Shown here piece after piece: positions 50,751 to 60,226 of a stretch of DNA of 64,000 nucleotides. The stretch lies in the NCBI GenBank assembly GCA_025060635.1, contig JANXBN010000001.1, positions 691,284 through 755,283 of the forward strand. The letters run 5' to 3'. The number at the start of each line of letters is the position of its first letter. Position 1 is the stretch's first letter. A program made the position numbers and the translations under genes. The notes under the pieces are model-generated. The model ran no database searches, was not told where the DNA came from, and saw only the letters and a program-made list of their open reading frames with translations. This DNA comes from Candidatus Kryptonium sp. Its GTDB lineage: Bacteria; Bacteroidota; Ignavibacteria; Kryptoniales; Kryptoniaceae.

Positions 50751-50780
50751 TTGCCAGTTCTTGATTTTTTATGCTATACT
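50751..50780 (+). promoter_or_regulatory. Candidate promoter before the YtxH-like gene
   Basis: TTGCCA at 50751-50756 and TATACT at 50775-50780 are separated by 18 bases and resemble a sigma-70 promoter. A TAnnTTTG box (TATCTTTG, 50789-50796) also lies here but lacks a TTG at the right distance. Which one is used is unclear. Confidence 0.35.
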
Positions 50781-50829
50781 TTTTATCTTATCTTTGAGTT
50801 TTTACAAAATAAAATTTTGGAGGTTGGAG

Positions 50830-51159
50830 ATGGCTCAAAATAATAACGAAGGGATGTTCAAAGGATTTTTAATTGGTTTCCTCGCTGGGAGTGCGCTTGG
50901 GGCGATACTTGCTATGTTATTTACACCGAAGAGCGGTAAAGAAATGAGATCTTTGATTAAAGAAAAATCTGGAGAGTATCTTGGTGAAGCAAAAGCGAAA
51001 GCGGAGGAAATTATTGAAAAAGCGAAAGAAGAAGCTGAAAAGATTAAAAAAGAAATTGATGAAATAATTACGACTGCAAAACAAAAAGTTGAAACAGTAA
51101 AGGAAGCAGTGAAGTCAGGCGTTGAAACTTATAAAGAAGAAACTAGAAAGAAAAGTTAG
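50830..51159 (+). CDS. YtxH-domain membrane protein
   Basis: A 109-residue protein with a glycine-rich membrane helix (FLIGFLAGSALGAILAMLFT) followed by the YtxH hallmark PKSGKEMRSLIKEK, and then a long charged coiled coil (AKAKAEEIIEKAKEEAEKIK and onward). YtxH proteins are stress-related in Firmicutes but their action is unknown. ATG 50830 has GGAGG 6 bases upstream. An in-frame start at 50761 would add a different hydrophobic stretch. It pairs with the DUF948 gene that follows. Confidence 0.85.
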   Translation: MAQNNNEGMFKGFLIGFLAGSALGAILAMLFTPKSGKEMRSLIKEKSGEYLGEAKAKAEEIIEKAKEEAEKIKKEIDEIITTAKQKVETVKEAVKSGVETYKEETRKKS

Positions 51160-51225: not shown

Positions 51226-51612
51226 ATGGAGATATTAATTCAAATCTTAACTGCTTTATTACTTGCAAGCGCAGTTGTTGTCCTTATTTATCTTGTTGTT
51301 GTCTTTGCCAAATTGAAAACATTGATAGAAAACTTAAACCGGACGACTAAAGAAATTAATTCAAAATTACCAACGATTCTTGAGAATCTTAAAAAAATTT
51401 CAGAGCAGCTTGCGGATGTGACCTCAAAAGCTCAATCCCAATTTGAAACCGTCCAAAACTTATCTGAATCAGTTCAATCTTATTTCAAAAAGCTTCGCGG
51501 AATTTTCTCGCCAGATAGTTCTTCATCTGCGGAAGGTCTGCCATTCGGCTTAACAAAAATTTTTGCTTTGATAAAGGCAATTCGCACTGTCATCGCAAGA
51601 TTAAAGACATAA
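51226..51612 (+). CDS. DUF948-like membrane protein
   Basis: A 128-residue protein with an N-terminal membrane helix (LIQILTALLLASAVVVLIYL) and a long helical, Ser/Thr/Gln-rich cytoplasmic part with the DUF948 style (LIENLNRTTKEINSKLPTIL, ISEQLADVTSKAQSQFETVQ). Such proteins often sit beside YtxH-domain genes, as here. The function is unknown. Confidence 0.78.
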   Translation: MEILIQILTALLLASAVVVLIYLVVVFAKLKTLIENLNRTTKEINSKLPTILENLKKISEQLADVTSKAQSQFETVQNLSESVQSYFKKLRGIFSPDSSSSAEGLPFGLTKIFALIKAIRTVIARLKT

Positions 51613-53740: not shown

Positions 53741-53766
53741 GATTAAATCTAAATTTTTTAAGTTCA

Positions 53767-53800
53767 AATCCCCTCCAATCTTTTTTGGAGGGGATTTTTT
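53767..53800 (+). terminator. Intrinsic terminator after the EF-G paralogue
   Basis: AATCCCCTCCA (53767-53777) pairs perfectly with TGGAGGGGATT (53786-53796), and the stem runs into a T-run ending at 53800. Confidence 0.92.
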
Positions 53801-53939: not shown

Positions 53940-55448
53940 ATGGCTCAACCTCTCAATATCCTCTTTCTTTCCAGTGAAATTGTCCCATTTGCAAAAACAG
54001 GTGGGCTCGCCGATGTTTCCTTTGCTCTTCCCCAAGCGATAAAAGAACTTGGTCATGAGATAAGAGCGATGATGCCTAAATATGGATTTATTAGCGAAAG
54101 AAAATTCGGAATACATGAAATTGTCCGCCTAAGAGATATGGATATCCCAGTTGGAGATAAACTTCAAAAAGGAAGCGCAAAGGCCTCTTTTATCGTCGGA
54201 CAAAAAGTTAAAGTTCAAGTATATTTCCTTGAAAATGAATTTTATTACAGTCGTGACGGTCTTTATGTTGATTCAAAAACAAAAAAAGATTATCCAGATA
54301 ACGACGAAAGATTCATATTTTTTTGTAAGGGAGTTATTGAAACGCTCAAGAAGTTAGGGTGGAGACCAGATGTAATTCACTGCAATGACTGGCAAACCGC
54401 ACTTGTTCCAGTTTATCTTAAAACGATTTACAAAGATGATCCATTTTTTAAAGGAATAAAAACGGTTTTGACAATTCATAATATCGGATATCAAGGAGTT
54501 TTCCCTAAGGAGTCATTTTACAAATCTGGGCTTCCAGATGAAATTCTACCGCAGGTAGAACACAACGGAAATTTCAATTTTCTAAAAGCTGGTATACTTT
54601 ATGCTGATGTTATAACCACCGTGAGCCCGACTTACGCGAAGGAAATAATTTCTGATGATGAATTCGGAGCAGGGCTTTCTGAAGTGCTTAAAAAAAGGAA
54701 AAAAGATATTTATGGAATTTTAAATGGTGTTGATTATTCTGTGTGGAGTCCTGAGAATGACAAGTATATTCCCGTTCCGTATAGCATTCAAACGATAGAA
54801 ACGAAGTATGAAAATAAAAAGGCTCTTTTGAAACATTTCGGGCTTGAATATGATGAGGAAATTCCAGTTGTTGCGCAAATTTCAAGGCTCGTTGATCAAA
54901 AAGGATTTGATCTAATTGAGGAAGTGATTGATGAAATGATGAAACTTAACATTCAATATATTGTCTTGGGCACAGGAGAACCACGCTATGAAGAGATGCT
55001 TGAAAAGGTAAAGAAGAAATATCCTAAAAAAGTTGGAGTTCATATAGGATTTAGTGAAGAACTTGCTCATCTTATTGAGGCAGGAGCTGATATATTTCTC
55101 ATGCCATCAAAATACGAACCATGTGGTTTGAATCAGATGTATAGTTTAAGATACGGAACTATCCCAGTAGTCAGAAAAACCGGAGGACTTGCTGATACAG
55201 TTGAAGAGTTCAATATAAAGACAGGACGAGGAACTGGATTTTTATTTGAAAGATATTCAGGTCAAGATCTATTGAAAGCGTTAAAAAAAGCATTGTCAGT
55301 TTATAAAAACCGAAAAGCATGGTTGAAATTGATGAAAAACGCAATGACAAAAGATTTCTCTTGGACGATGTCCGCAAAAAAATATGTTGAACTTTATCAA
55401 AAACTGATGGCACAACAAAAAAAGACGCGAACTGTTAAAGCGAAATGA
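53940..55448 (+). CDS. glgA: Glycogen (starch) synthase, GT5
   Basis: A 502-residue glycosyltransferase using ADP- or UDP-glucose to extend glycogen. The N-terminal substrate loop is VPFAKTGGLADVSFALPQ. Also seen are HCNDWQTALVPVYL, VLTIHNIGYQG and the C-terminal sugar-nucleotide motif MPSKYEPCGLNQMYSLRYGT followed by VRKTGGLADTVEE. ATG 53940 is chosen, with GAGGAG 7 bases upstream. The stop overlaps gmhB by 4 bases. Confidence 0.94.
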   Translation: MAQPLNILFLSSEIVPFAKTGGLADVSFALPQAIKELGHEIRAMMPKYGFISERKFGIHEIVRLRDMDIPVGDKLQKGSAKASFIVGQKVKVQVYFLENEFYYSRDGLYVDSKTKKDYPDNDERFIFFCKGVIETLKKLGWRPDVIHCNDWQTALVPVYLKTIYKDDPFFKGIKTVLTIHNIGYQGVFPKESFYKSGLPDEILPQVEHNGNFNFLKAGILYADVITTVSPTYAKEIISDDEFGAGLSEVLKKRKKDIYGILNGVDYSVWSPENDKYIPVPYSIQTIETKYENKKALLKHFGLEYDEEIPVVAQISRLVDQKGFDLIEEVIDEMMKLNIQYIVLGTGEPRYEEMLEKVKKKYPKKVGVHIGFSEELAHLIEAGADIFLMPSKYEPCGLNQMYSLRYGTIPVVRKTGGLADTVEEFNIKTGRGTGFLFERYSGQDLLKALKKALSVYKNRKAWLKLMKNAMTKDFSWTMSAKKYVELYQKLMAQQKKTRTVKAK

Positions 55449-56095
55449 AAAACTTAAATGTCGCTGTATTCCTTGATAGAGATGGGACAATTAATGAAGA
55501 TGTAAATTTTTTATCTTCACCAGAACAACTCGTTCTCATAGATGGTTCTGCCGAAGCAATAAAAGAGGCAAATGAGATTGGTTTAAAGGTTATCGTTTGC
55601 ACAAATCAAAGTGGAATTGCGCGAGGTTATTTCACGGAAGACGATTTGCACAAGATCCACAAACGACTTGATGAGTTGCTCGCTGAAAAAGGGGCAAAAG
55701 TAGATGCTTATTATTACTGTCCTCATCATCCAACCGAAGGGACTGGAAAATATAAACTTGAATGCGAATGTAGAAAACCTAAGAATGGAATGCTCAAGCG
55801 CGCCTCGCAGGAGCATAACATTGATTTGAAAAGATCATTCGTTATAGGTGATAGACTTTACGATATTTTAGCTGGAAAATCTTCAGGTGCGACCACGATC
55901 CTTGTTTTAACTGGCTATGGCAAGGAAGCATATGAAAAATGTAAAAGCGAAAACCTTGAACCAGATTTTATCGCAAGAAATCTGAAGGAAGCAATGGAAA
56001 TAGTTAAAAAAATAATAACTCAAGGCAACGGCGGTTTAGAAAATGACAACAAAAATTTATCTCAAGAGAATGAAAAAGACGCTTTGGAAAAATAA
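55445..56095 (+). CDS. gmhB: D-glycero-D-manno-heptose-1,7-bisphosphate 7-phosphatase-like HAD phosphatase
   Basis: A 216-residue HAD-IIIA phosphatase. The nucleophile motif is FLDRDGTINEDVNFLSSPE. The second motif is TNQSGIARGYFTE. A zinc-binding loop of GmhB type lies at YYCPHHPTEGTGKYKLEC and ECRKPKNGML, with the third motif in VIGDRLYDILAGKSSG. GmhB makes ADP-heptose precursors of lipopolysaccharide core. An alternative is histidinol-phosphatase of the same family. The C-terminus after about residue 185 is a low-complexity charged extension. It is coupled to glgA. Confidence 0.82.
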   Translation: MKNLNVAVFLDRDGTINEDVNFLSSPEQLVLIDGSAEAIKEANEIGLKVIVCTNQSGIARGYFTEDDLHKIHKRLDELLAEKGAKVDAYYYCPHHPTEGTGKYKLECECRKPKNGMLKRASQEHNIDLKRSFVIGDRLYDILAGKSSGATTILVLTGYGKEAYEKCKSENLEPDFIARNLKEAMEIVKKIITQGNGGLENDNKNLSQENEKDALEK

Positions 56096-56096
56096 A

Positions 56097-57188
56097 ATGA
56101 AACGAAACTTATTAATATTATCTTTCTCACTTATGACTACTTTTTTTCTCTCAGGATGCGCAAAGGAACCAAATGATGTCGGATTCGGGCTTTTACCAGA
56201 AAACGAACTTTTTAATGTTAGGGTATATGAAGATTCCGTAGAAATTTATGCAGAAAACATTGAAACATTTATATCAAATTCTACTTCAAACATTTTGCTC
56301 ATTGGAAATTACGATAACATCTCCTGTGGTATATTAATTCGTTTTGATATTCCTGATACACTTAAGGACATTAAAATGGAATGGGCTCAAATAAGATTAT
56401 TTAGATCAAAATTTTTCATCGGAGATAGCACTATACCAATTCACTTTACTGCTCACAAAGTTTTATCTAACTATTATGATACGCTCTATGAAGCGCGAGC
56501 TATAGGTGAATTTAGGGGCGTTCCTGATTCTGTTAATTATTTTAAAATAGATACAGGAGTAGTGAGGGAATGGCTTAACGGGAAAAATTATGGGCTTTAC
56601 CTGAAGCCGCGTAATTCTGGTGTAATCAGAGGATTTAACTCACTTGATGAGATGCTTTTCACGCCTGCTCTTGAAATCGTCATCCCAAAACAGGATAAGC
56701 TAGATACAATAAGATTTTTCTACGGAAGCGACGGCTATATAGCAAGGTTAAATGAAAGAATTGATACAAACTACATTGTTTTGCAGGCAGGAGTTGGTAT
56801 AAGAAGCATTTTGAAATTTGGTATTTCAAATCTTCCCAAAAATATAATTGTAAATCGTGCTGAAGTCGTTTTATATCTGAAAGAAAGAAAGAAGTATGGT
56901 GGAGGTGTTGATTCGCTATTGGCTAGTTTTATAACTGATGTTGATTTAGCCAAGAAATCAATTGGTGGTTTTGAAGGTAATTATCTCGGCTTGAGGAATC
57001 AACTTGACACGATTGAATATACAATTCCAGTCACAACTCCAGTTCAGCGCTGGGTAAATGGCGAGGCGAATAATGGAATTTTAATAAGACCTTTTTCTGA
57101 AGTAGATAACTTTGATCGTTTCGTTTTTTATTATAAAACTAAGCGACCTAAATTGAAAATTTATTACACAACAAAACCTGGGATTTAA
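56097..57188 (+). CDS. Large lipoprotein, DUF4270/DNRLRE-like
   Basis: A 363-residue lipoprotein with the lipobox LSGC (Cys21) after SFSLMTTFFLSGC. The mature part is beta-rich with paired sequences: SCGILIRFDIPDTLKDIKME near 95 and RSILKFGISNLPKNIIVNRA near 237, both followed by variable strand blocks, as in DNRLRE/DUF4270 lipoproteins of Bacteroidetes. ATG 56097 is chosen (1 base after the gmhB stop); the in-frame ATG at 56043 lies within gmhB. It is probably surface-exposed or periplasmic. The glgA neighbourhood is similar to that of DUF4270 genes in Bacteroidetes (from memory, unverified). Confidence 0.72.
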   Translation: MKRNLLILSFSLMTTFFLSGCAKEPNDVGFGLLPENELFNVRVYEDSVEIYAENIETFISNSTSNILLIGNYDNISCGILIRFDIPDTLKDIKMEWAQIRLFRSKFFIGDSTIPIHFTAHKVLSNYYDTLYEARAIGEFRGVPDSVNYFKIDTGVVREWLNGKNYGLYLKPRNSGVIRGFNSLDEMLFTPALEIVIPKQDKLDTIRFFYGSDGYIARLNERIDTNYIVLQAGVGIRSILKFGISNLPKNIIVNRAEVVLYLKERKKYGGGVDSLLASFITDVDLAKKSIGGFEGNYLGLRNQLDTIEYTIPVTTPVQRWVNGEANNGILIRPFSEVDNFDRFVFYYKTKRPKLKIYYTTKPGI

Positions 57189-57194
57189 ATCAAG

Positions 57195-58412
57195 ATGAGA
57201 TTTAAGTTTTTAATTCTCTTTCTTTTTGTTTACTCAATCTCAATAGCAAACGGTTCTATTTACTCACGATTTGGCATAGGTATTTTGCGCTTTTCAACTG
57301 TTGATAAAACCGCTGGACTTGGTGGTCTTGGAATCGCCCTTTTTGATCCGATTTATATAAACCGATACAATCCAGCTTTGTGGAGCGAAATTGCAAGAGT
57401 GAGAGTTTCTGGAGGTTATCTTTATGAAGGTACATCAATTCAAGATAAATTTAAAAATACTTTTTTAACGAGCGGGAATTTTGACGGTGTTTTATTTGCA
57501 ATTCCTCTGTGGAAAAGACATGGCTTAACATTTGCAACTGGCGTGGTGCCATTTAGCAAGGTAAGTTACAGCATCAAAAAAGATTCAATTGTTGAAAGTA
57601 GATATTTTACACAATGGTATAAAGGCGAAGGTGGAATTTCAAGTTTTATTTTCGGGCTTTCGTTTAGACCATTTAATAAGTTGAGCATTGGAGTAAGAGG
57701 TGAGTATTACTTTGGGACAATAATTAATTCATGGGATACAGATTTTGGAAGTTCAGAGTTCTTTTTTTCAAACATAAAGCGTGAGAGGAGTTATTGGGGG
57801 TTGGGATTTACCGCAGGAATTGCATATGGTCTCGGGGTAGGGAAGAATTCTGTAACTGTTGGATTTATATTTTCTTCACCTGTCAATTTGAAAGGATTAA
57901 CGACGATTGAATATATGGTTCCTGTTGTAGGAAGTTCAAATGTTACGGAAACAAGTGAATTAAGCTCAAAACTACCATATAGAGTTGGGTTTGGACTAAG
58001 CTACTTCATATCTGATAGAGTTCAATTTTCTGGTGATGTTTATTATCAAAACTGGAAAAAGTTCCATATTAATGGCAAACAGTTAAAGGAGATAACGGAT
58101 GCTTTGAGGGTTGGCGCTGGACTTGAGGTTTTGCCATCAAGGGAGGTTTTTGCTGGATTTTTTAATAAAACCTCTTACAGATTTGGAATTTTTTACAACA
58201 AAACATATTTTAAAATAGATGAGAAGCAAATAAATGAGTTGTTCTTTAGCGTCGGTTTTGGTTTCCCTATAAGTTTTGATACCAGATTGAATTTGGCGGT
58301 TGAGTATGGTGTGAGAGGAAAAATTGAAATAGTTAGAGACAGAATTTTGAGAATTTCAATCGGAGTTAACACTGGAGAAATTTGGTTTGTAAAACAAAAG
58401 CTTGAGGATTAA
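57195..58412 (+). CDS. Outer-membrane beta-barrel protein of unknown function
   Basis: A 405-residue protein with a signal peptide (KFLILFLFVYSISIANGS) and a body of alternating hydrophobic and glycine-rich strands typical of outer-membrane porins or FadL-like proteins: SRFGIGILRFSTVDKTAGLG, YNPALWSEIARVRVSGGYLY, GFTAGIAYGLGVGKNSVTVG and YRVGFGLSYFISDRVQFSGD. The NPALWSEI segment recurs in Bacteroidetes/Chlorobi outer-membrane proteins. It follows the lipoprotein gene by 6 bases and precedes a TPR gene by 5 bases, so the three form a unit. Confidence 0.8.
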   Translation: MRFKFLILFLFVYSISIANGSIYSRFGIGILRFSTVDKTAGLGGLGIALFDPIYINRYNPALWSEIARVRVSGGYLYEGTSIQDKFKNTFLTSGNFDGVLFAIPLWKRHGLTFATGVVPFSKVSYSIKKDSIVESRYFTQWYKGEGGISSFIFGLSFRPFNKLSIGVRGEYYFGTIINSWDTDFGSSEFFFSNIKRERSYWGLGFTAGIAYGLGVGKNSVTVGFIFSSPVNLKGLTTIEYMVPVVGSSNVTETSELSSKLPYRVGFGLSYFISDRVQFSGDVYYQNWKKFHINGKQLKEITDALRVGAGLEVLPSREVFAGFFNKTSYRFGIFYNKTYFKIDEKQINELFFSVGFGFPISFDTRLNLAVEYGVRGKIEIVRDRILRISIGVNTGEIWFVKQKLED

Positions 58413-58417
58413 TAAAA

Positions 58418-59692
58418 ATGAAAAAAATAGTTTTGCTTTCGCTTCTTGTTTCTGGGATAATTTTTGCACAGGGAACGAAGCAGGATTCAATTGAGGTTTT
58501 GAAGAATTGGTCTTTGTTCTATGAATATTTCAAGACGGGGGATTATGTAAGTGCGTATCCGTACGGATGGAAAGTTATGGAAATGCAGCCGACGAGGTTT
58601 AAAACTCTTTATAAAGCAATGGAGAGAATTTATTTAAAATTCTATGAGGAGGCGCCTCAAGACCTGAAGCAAAAGTATGCAGATACTCTTTTGATAATCT
58701 ACGATAACGCAATAAAGTATCATCCTGAAAATGCGTCAGAGTATTATTTGAGGAAAGGATATGTTCTTGAGAATTATTACACAGGAAGAGATAACGAAGC
58801 AATAGTTGCTTATGAGAAGGGAATTGAATTGGATTTTGAACATACAGAGTTTTATTATATTGATCGTCTTGGTGTGCTTTATATAAAGCATATGGAGGAA
58901 AATCCAGATTATAGAGAAAAAGCAATTGAACTATATCGCAAAGTCCTTGATAAAGATCCGCAAAATGTTACAGCAAATGATAGGCTAAGGACACTTGTTA
59001 AGGATATAGCTGAGTTGATTGAACTTAACAAAAAGCGACTTGAAGTAGATCCAGAGAATACCGAGCTTATATGGACAATTGCAAATCTTTATATTCGTGC
59101 TGAAGATTATAAAAGCGCAATCCCGTATCTTGAAAAATTAACAAAAAAATTCCCAGATAACGAAACATATTGGAATCGCCTCGGTTATTGTTACCAACGC
59201 GTGGGTGAATATAGAAAGGCGATTGAGGCTTATAATCGTTCGTTGAAAATAAATCCAGATGCGAAGGAAATTATACTTAACATTTCTGTTTGTTATCGTG
59301 AGCTTGATAACTTTGAACAGGCTAGGCTTTGGGCAAGAAGAGCTATGGCCAAGGACAAAAATTGGGGGAGACCATACCTTGAGATAGCTCAGATCTATGA
59401 AGCAACCGTTGCAAGGTGTATAAAAACAACAAAAGGTGGGGATTGGACAAAGATTGAATTCACAGATAAACTTGTCTATCAACTTGCAGTTGAGTATTAT
59501 GAGCTTGCTAAAAGGGTTGATCCAAGCGTCGCAAACGAAGCAAATCAAAGAATAAAAAATCTTGAAACTCTCGTTCCAACTCAAGAAGATTATTTCTTCA
59601 ACAAGAGGAAAATAAAAGATGGCAAGATCCCAATAGCAGGTGGATGTTATGATTGGATAGGTGAGAGTATAACAGTTCCATATAAAATATGA
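58418..59692 (+). CDS. Exported TPR-repeat protein
   Basis: A 424-residue protein with a signal peptide (KIVLLSLLVSGIIFAQGT) and at least six tetratricopeptide units, most clearly YRKVLDKDPQNVTANDRLRT, LYIRAEDYKSAIPYLEKLTK, YCYQRVGEYRKAIEAYNRSL and ISVCYRELDNFEQARLWARR. It ends with DWIGESITVPYKI. It probably acts in the periplasm or at the outer membrane as a protein-binding scaffold. It closes the cluster with the barrel and lipoprotein genes and is followed by a terminator. Confidence 0.85.
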   Translation: MKKIVLLSLLVSGIIFAQGTKQDSIEVLKNWSLFYEYFKTGDYVSAYPYGWKVMEMQPTRFKTLYKAMERIYLKFYEEAPQDLKQKYADTLLIIYDNAIKYHPENASEYYLRKGYVLENYYTGRDNEAIVAYEKGIELDFEHTEFYYIDRLGVLYIKHMEENPDYREKAIELYRKVLDKDPQNVTANDRLRTLVKDIAELIELNKKRLEVDPENTELIWTIANLYIRAEDYKSAIPYLEKLTKKFPDNETYWNRLGYCYQRVGEYRKAIEAYNRSLKINPDAKEIILNISVCYRELDNFEQARLWARRAMAKDKNWGRPYLEIAQIYEATVARCIKTTKGGDWTKIEFTDKLVYQLAVEYYELAKRVDPSVANEANQRIKNLETLVPTQEDYFFNKRKIKDGKIPIAGGCYDWIGESITVPYKI

Positions 59693-59737: not shown

Positions 59738-59764
59738 CGCAGGCGTTTGCCTGCGTTTTTATTT
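59738..59764 (+). terminator. Intrinsic terminator after the TPR gene
   Basis: CGCAGGC (59738-59744) and GCCTGCG (59749-59755) form a perfect 7-base stem with GTTT loop, followed by TTTTT. It lies 46 bases after the TPR stop and ends just before rpiB. Confidence 0.92.
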
Positions 59765-59785: not shown

Positions 59786-60226
59786 ATGAAAATAGCAATC
59801 GCAAGTGATCACGCTGGATTTGAGTATAAAGAAAAACTGAAAGAACTGTTAAGGGAACTCGGATATGAACCTATAGATTTTGGCTGTTTTTCACCTGATT
59901 CAAGTGATTATCCTGATTTCGCATATCCAGCTGCGAAGGCAGTTGGAAATGGTGAATGTGAAAGAGGTATATTTGTGTGTGGAACGGGTATCGGAGTTTC
60001 TATAGTCGCAAACAAAGTCAAAGGTGTAAGAGCTGCTAACTGTTGTTCTGTTGAAGAAGCAAAACTCTCAAGACAGCATAATGACGCAAATGTCTTAACA
60101 TTTGGGGCAAGGCTTATACCGTGGGAACTTGCTAAGGAGATCACTAAGGTCTGGCTTGAAACTGAGTTTGAAGGTGGAAGGCACGAACGAAGAGTTGAAA
60201 AAATTCATAAGTTAACGGGACTTTGA
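59786..60226 (+). CDS. rpiB: Ribose 5-phosphate isomerase B
   Basis: RpiB interconverts ribose 5-phosphate and ribulose 5-phosphate in the pentose phosphate pathway. The 146 residues start MKIAIASDHAGFEYKEKLKE. Catalytic residues are visible: Cys in GIFVCGTGIGVSIVANK and His in RQHNDANVLTFGARL. The length matches the family. It has its own region between a terminator and the amidase leader. Confidence 0.94.
   Translation: MKIAIASDHAGFEYKEKLKELLRELGYEPIDFGCFSPDSSDYPDFAYPAAKAVGNGECERGIFVCGTGIGVSIVANKVKGVRAANCCSVEEAKLSRQHNDANVLTFGARLIPWELAKEITKVWLETEFEGGRHERRVEKIHKLTGL

Follow-up and report, generated by a model that had tools for sequence, protein, structure and literature searches.

The stretch analysed here, referred to as the window, comprises 64,000 nucleotides of a Candidatus Kryptonium genome (assembly GCA_025060635.1, contig JANXBN010000001.1, positions 691,284 to 755,283 of the forward strand). 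At positions 53940 to 59692 it carries a row of five genes that very probably represents the BamH-BamG part of the Bacteroidota-type β-barrel assembly machinery (BAM) in Candidatus Kryptonia, reported as a hot-spring lineage (PMC4737851), together with an exported tetratricopeptide repeat (TPR) protein. BamG and BamH are subunits of the Bacteroidota BAM complex, described in papers of October 2025 (PMC12611786, PMC12578637). A first-pass annotation had described the row as an operon of glgA, gmhB, a 363-residue lipoprotein, a β-barrel and an exported TPR protein, and had singled out the last three as an undescribed envelope system. The gene order, the overlap, the three protein types and the spacing of 1-6 bases were all borne out by the open reading frames (ORFs) and the gaps between them, and the envelope trio is indeed kept together in relatives as one operon-like cluster. 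The undescribed system, by contrast, is ruled out, because the barrel and the lipoprotein are almost certainly BamG and BamH, the first by curated model and solved chains, the second by fold. The barrel thus belongs to a known family with a well-defined role, an outcome named beforehand as fatal to the proposal. A cluster taken as unknown is thereby reassigned to a known machine, and novelty persists for the TPR protein, a conserved neighbour of bamG that goes unmentioned in the BAM papers.

The barrel, a FadL-type outer-membrane subunit of 405 aa, is encoded by bamG (57195..58412, + strand). It scores 259.9 bits against the curated NCBIfam equivalog NF053685 (BamG), above the cut-off of 250 (4e-77, residues 20-402). 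A phmmer search against the PDB returned only three chains, all of them BamG and all matched full-length: 9hjm_F from Porphyromonas gingivalis (E 4.2e-30), 9hiv_F from Bacteroides thetaiotaomicron (9.7e-28), and 9n2d_B from Flavobacterium johnsoniae (1.2e-20). The N-terminal motif NGSIYSRFGIGIL, corresponding to the BamG tail signature xYSRFGxG and kept in relatives, aligns to ESPYTRFGLGRL at the N-terminus of the P. gingivalis BamG; an extended conserved N-terminus is what distinguishes BamG from FadL transporters (PMC12578637).

The lipoprotein gene, bamH (56097..57188, + strand, 363 aa), lies between the glgA-gmhB pair and bamG and encodes a predicted surface lipoprotein with the lipobox FLSGC. 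Sequence searches with it were weak, and several of them speak against the assignment: Pfam gave nothing useful and no match to DUF4270 (PF14092), the curated NCBIfam model NF053686 (BamH_fj) reached only 11.5 bits (E 0.08) over residues 29-92 against a cut-off of 420, and identity to the solved BamH proteins is 12-15%. A DNRLRE domain was matched at 1e-13. The BamH_fj model is narrow, being of the F. johnsoniae type, and no more than 10 of the 148 genomes sampled across the phylum pass it. Since phmmer of the lipoprotein against the PDB returned no match, a comparison of folds was needed. The AlphaFold2 model (45 relatives, pLDDT 87.6) is a two-domain β protein, and its alignment with VIA-align to 986 PDB chains placed 9n2d_C (Z 20.7), 9hjm_G (Z 19.1), and 9his_G (Z 17.9) at the top. 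These are the three solved BamH chains, superposed over 319-326 residues with a root mean square deviation of 4.5-5.1, and the model thus has the two-domain fold of BamH. The next-best row (Z 13.5, 151 residues) is a carbohydrate-binding fold, the fold of the BamG-proximal part of BamH (PMC12611786). Foldseek likewise matched the model to 9hjm_G (2e-14).

Further features of the protein agree with this assignment. The lipid-bearing cysteine is residue 21, and two acidic residues (E and D) come within six positions of it in the mature N-terminus, CAKEPND; two or more acidic residues near this cysteine occur in 67 of 91 relatives. Such residues are a mark of surface lipoproteins, as applied in PMC12578637. 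A profile of the lipoproteins from the class to which the genome belongs (Ignavibacteria in the GTDB lineage) also reached Bacteroidota BamH ORFs, or ORFs directly 5' of bamG, with E values of 2e-22 to 7e-6 (L176, L181, L173, L159) and, in a second set, of 7e-41 to 3e-6 (L235, L231, L232, L224). Because the protein fails the narrow BamH_fj model, it is filed as BamH on its predicted fold and gene context, outside the membership of this model.

The core partners of the two proteins are encoded elsewhere in the genome. Single genes for BamA (C4:147779-150058, 433.6 bits) and BamD (C6:59294-59983, 173.2 bits) were found, both above their cut-offs, so that BamA, BamD, BamG, and BamH of a Bacteroidota-type BAM are all present. 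Within the class, BamG was found in 98 of 99 genomes; the named near relatives with the cluster are Candidatus Kryptonium, Thermokryptus, and Chrysopegis. Since both BamG and BamH are already known from six of the seven sister phyla of the FCB group (PMC12611786), their presence in Kryptonia is expected. These findings bear on the idea that the cluster encodes a separate surface complex, for instance an importer of the FadL type that takes up hydrophobic molecules with the help of a binding lipoprotein. BamG does lie within the FadL superfamily, and the barrel, for which Pfam gave nothing useful otherwise, has a weak match to Toluene_X (0.024). The barrel nevertheless passes the curated BamG model and finds its best matches in solved BamG chains, its partner has the BamH fold, and near-universal occurrence in the class is not what an optional importer would show; we regard an importer as very unlikely.

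A second alternative, more doubtful still, takes the barrel for a PorV-like shuttle that passes cargo of the type 9 secretion system (T9SS) to a surface lipoprotein. The genome does encode SprA, the T9SS channel (a 2208-aa frame), and the barrel has some similarity to the PorV/PorQ model NF033709 (15.8 bits, E 0.008). That score is far under the cut-off of 90, as against 259.9 bits for BamG, and the shuttle again leaves the BamH fold of the lipoprotein unaccounted for. The joint occurrence of BamG and SprA across the phylum is counted in favour of the BAM reading: 17 of 80 genomes, making up the family labelled f27 in our sample, have neither a strong BamG match nor SprA, and SprA is present in 62 of the other 63. 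This agrees with the BamG-SprA correlation described for Chlorobiota (PMC12611786).

What BamG and BamH do is known from solved complexes (PMC12611786, PMC12578637). BamG, a 14-stranded FadL-type barrel, attaches to the back of BamA, and its conserved, extended N-terminal tail threads the lateral opening of the barrel. BamH is carried by BamG; its lipid lies between the two barrels, and the protein arches over the folding site. Both are essential core subunits in F. johnsoniae, where cells deprived of one or the other behave as if BamA were missing (PMC12611786). In B. thetaiotaomicron, BamG could not be deleted, and cells could do without BamH (PMC12578637). A suggested role of BamH is to assist with large clients, some SusCD systems among them. 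By analogy, BamA, BamG, and BamH of Kryptonia would adopt the same arrangement.

The third gene of the trio, the TPR gene (58418..59692, + strand), follows bamG and encodes a protein of 424 aa with an N-terminal signal peptide, recognized by eye, and without a lipobox. Its AlphaFold2 model (pLDDT 93.0) is one continuous helical superhelix, from about residue 20 to 385, with a small C-terminal module. Public family models gave generic TPR matches only; fold searches with the model likewise named no relative beyond generic superhelices (OGT, BBS4, LGN, and designed CTPR proteins), as did a profile search of the PDB. The family is nevertheless recognizable outside its repeats by an N-terminal SLFxEYxK and a C-terminal EDxFF...CxWI[GN]E. 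The family-specific C-terminal module reads EDyFF...CYxWIGxSVTVP in the window gene and GCWIGETTTVR in Bacteroidota members, which share the mark, and C334 and C410 are invariant in 47 relatives.

The gene occurs in 35 of the 99 genomes from the class, spread over seven families, and its position is more constant than its presence. In a phylum-wide draw, bamG lies directly 5' on the same strand in 30 of the 30 best TPR loci; in a draw from Bacteroidia, which shares a few genomes with the first, 25 of 30 TPR loci lie directly 3' of bamG, two of the five exceptions being at a contig end. The pair persists while its other neighbours change, from glgA-bamH in this class to coaX and lptC in Bacteroidota. 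There bamG has separated from bamH, the order is coaX-bamG-TPR-lptC, and the TPR gene has moved along with bamG. Three Neomarinimicrobiota loci show the order truncated glgA, lipoprotein-like ORF of 880-960 aa, bamG, TPR gene, rpiB, with the TPR protein itself a predicted lipoprotein. Presence on the BamG tree is patchy: the well-supported branches require no fewer than seven changes. Because this patchy presence goes with a fixed position, an ancestral bamG-TPR pair with repeated loss is suggested. Judged by gene order, the TPR gene is an ancient and specific neighbour of bamG.

Whether the protein also works with BAM is a separate matter, on which we lean slightly to the affirmative. Given the constant linkage to bamG, the export signal, and a peptide-binding fold, the protein may act on BamA-BamG-BamD from the periplasm, either as a scaffold or as an adaptor for substrates or chaperones. 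Its superhelix would bind short peptides, for example the BamG tail, surfaces of BamD or the BamA POTRA domains, or segments of incoming barrels. The TPR gene, which is what appears new in the cluster, may thus encode an overlooked helper, a candidate periplasmic BAM factor. That its family is an ancestral BAM component, or a BAM-dedicated periplasmic factor, of Bacteroidota and Neomarinimicrobiota seems to us an even call.

Several observations weigh against a role in BAM. Flavobacterium-type genomes, so assigned by their BamG and BamH scores, have lptC directly after bamG with no TPR gene between them (L216, L217), a state that would extend to F. johnsoniae itself. The gene is also missing from many lineages of the class, among them many genomes that retain bamG and bamH, and is therefore dispensable somewhere. 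Published pull-downs and structures of BAM from F. johnsoniae, B. thetaiotaomicron, and P. gingivalis do not mention the protein, and it is therefore no stable subunit of those complexes. Among the papers covered, the words tetratricopeptide and TPR are absent from the text of PMC12611786 and PMC12578637; a 2026 review attributes TPRs to BamD alone (PMC13067283), and the literature found on the B. thetaiotaomicron genes beside BamG consists of the BAM paper. Finally, lptC just downstream in Bacteroidota allows for another envelope role. Together these points favour a hitch-hiking neighbour that serves a different envelope process, such as lipopolysaccharide transport near lptC or general envelope scaffolding, an explanation that would leave BamH and BamG as assigned. 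We consider it a serious explanation, though somewhat improbable: coaX and lptC are not adjacent in Kryptonia, Ignavibacteria, and Neomarinimicrobiota, yet the TPR gene still lies 3' of bamG, its sole constant partner. Since Flavobacterium-like genomes lack the gene, the protein could not appear in a structure determined from one of them. A BAM-associated TPR factor may have gone unnoticed so far for two reasons: the lineage that supplied the first structure has lost it, and its binding may be only transient. Either way, the neighbour of bamG is one concrete, testable gene conserved over two phyla.

The genes upstream tell a second story of old linkage. Forty loci, drawn from 20 families of the class, were compared; glgA lies 5' of bamH and bamG in 39 of them, and the remaining locus stops at a contig border. 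In most, gmhB lies between glgA and bamH, and rpiB often follows, standing 3' of bamG or of the TPR gene in many relatives. Every one of the 101 bamG-bearing loci in relatives, those of the named genomes included, is collinear in the order glgA-(gmhB)-bamH-bamG-(TPR)-(rpiB), and the arrangement is therefore not a matter of chance. Among Bacteroidota, the ORF immediately 5' of bamH is GlgA-like at 29 of 30 BamH_fj loci. It is only about 270 aa long and lacks both the KTGGL motif and the C-terminal half that holds YEPCGL. Truncated ORFs of this kind, about 256-318 aa long, stand immediately ahead of bamH at L157-L184 and L186 in Bacteroidota and, in the same place, ahead of the large lipoprotein ORF at L150, L151, and L154 in Neomarinimicrobiota. 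The truncated GlgA is probably inactive as an enzyme, yet it has been kept beside a core BAM gene, and, as far as its sequence tells, the linkage to bamH has outlived glycogen-synthase activity.

This outcome argues against a plain metabolic link, in which glgA and gmhB would make or modify a surface sugar handled by the trio; the first-pass annotation had seen in the operon a link between a sugar-phosphate enzyme and a surface complex. The synteny it relied on is real, both in the tight operon-like spacing here and in the phylum-wide adjacency of glgA and bamH. On the other side, GlgA beside bamH has lost both catalytic motifs in Bacteroidota and Neomarinimicrobiota, gmhB is absent at many loci, and the role of BamH and BamG, outer-membrane protein assembly, is known. 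A functional metabolic link is therefore probably lacking, and we hold it to be very unlikely.

The window GlgA is itself full-length (53940..55448, + strand): a glycogen/starch synthase of 502 aa counted from ATG, with an alternative TTG start 3 nt upstream, a TIGR02095 score of 601.6 bits (cut-off 328), and both motifs, KTGGLADV and YEPCGL. It overlaps gmhB (55445..56095, + strand) by 4 bp in an ATGA junction. The gmhB product is a phosphatase of the HAD type, assigned to heptose-1,7-bisphosphate by NF006506 (190.6 bits, cut-off 178) and TIGR00213 (160.8 bits, cut-off 149.6). The gaps to bamH, bamG, and the TPR gene are then 1, 6, and 5 nt. A terminator-like hairpin with a 13-pair stem and a T tail (53766..53797, + strand) separates glgA from the EF-G gene upstream and is the probable 5' border of the transcription unit. 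The probable 3' border is a second such hairpin (59738..59755, + strand; CGCAGGCG TTTG CCTGCG with a T tail), in the interval between the TPR gene and rpiB. As 5 terminator-like sites turned up in the scan where 4.4 were expected, a number not above chance, the borders are suggestive, with position and stem strength in their favour. In the same scan no promoter-like match rose above chance level. The conserved syntenic neighbour rpiB (59786..60226, + strand; TIGR01120, 176.1 bits, above cut-off) is probably a separate transcription unit here. Two further ORFs lie just upstream of EF-G: a YtxH-like one (50761-51159) and, beside it, one for a small membrane protein of the DUF948 type (51226-51612; 37.5 bits, cut-off 37.2).

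Variation at the bamH position was noted in several relatives. In several genomes of family f3 (L044, L045, L046, L049) the stop-free frame around bamH extends to about 800-850 aa against a match of about 380 aa, a measure of frame openness only. Neomarinimicrobiota carry at this position, between truncated glgA and bamG, the 880-960-aa lipoprotein-like ORF mentioned above (L150:2744-5431, L151:2324-4963, L154:2363-5251), which is possibly an enlarged BamH; the ORF of L150, the only one tested, had no Pfam match. In one relative of the class, a second bamG (L185, L197; G019:C30:79643-82203) scores 333 bits, above the genome's own cluster copy, and lies beside a BamH_fj-like ORF. The two resemble the BamG2-BamH2 pairs of Bacteroidota and may have been acquired.

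Comparison with known systems places the cluster among the Bacteroidota machines. Bacteroidota BamH proteins are DUF4270 proteins encoded behind a GlgA-like gene, and the Kryptonia lipoprotein occupies the same place, although it has no PF14092 match and its GlgA neighbour is full-length. BamD is the TPR lipoprotein of BAM, and the window TPR protein is proposed to share its periplasmic side of the complex. BamD was considered as an identity for that protein and rejected: it scores 22.3 bits against the TIGR03302 cut-off of 81.4, has no lipobox, and the true BamD is encoded elsewhere. BamP is a tripartite periplasmic protein with a linker that enters the BamA barrel; the model of the window TPR protein is a single unbroken superhelix with its small C-terminal module. 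The B. thetaiotaomicron and P. gingivalis complexes consist of BamA, BamD, and BamG-K (PDB 9hiv/9hj3, 9his, 9hjm; PMC12578637). Their BamG proteins are the nearest to the Kryptonia barrel by phmmer, and the BamH fold matches both; differently from the cluster described here, PMC12578637 mentions no TPR protein, no glgA, and no shared operon except for the BamG2H2 pair. The F. johnsoniae complex is made of BamA, D, G, H, M, and P (PDB 9n2d; PMC12611786), and Kryptonia shares with it BamG by curated model, BamH by fold, and the presence of BamA and BamD. Whereas bamG and bamH occupy separate loci in F. johnsoniae (Fjoh_1412, Fjoh_0823), they are adjacent here, with a BamH of 363 aa and a TPR gene after bamG that Flavobacterium-like genomes do not have. 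In deep lineages such as Kryptonia, the genes for the BamG-BamH extension described in 2025 thus form a single, compact, operon-like unit within an old glgA-bamH-bamG synteny.

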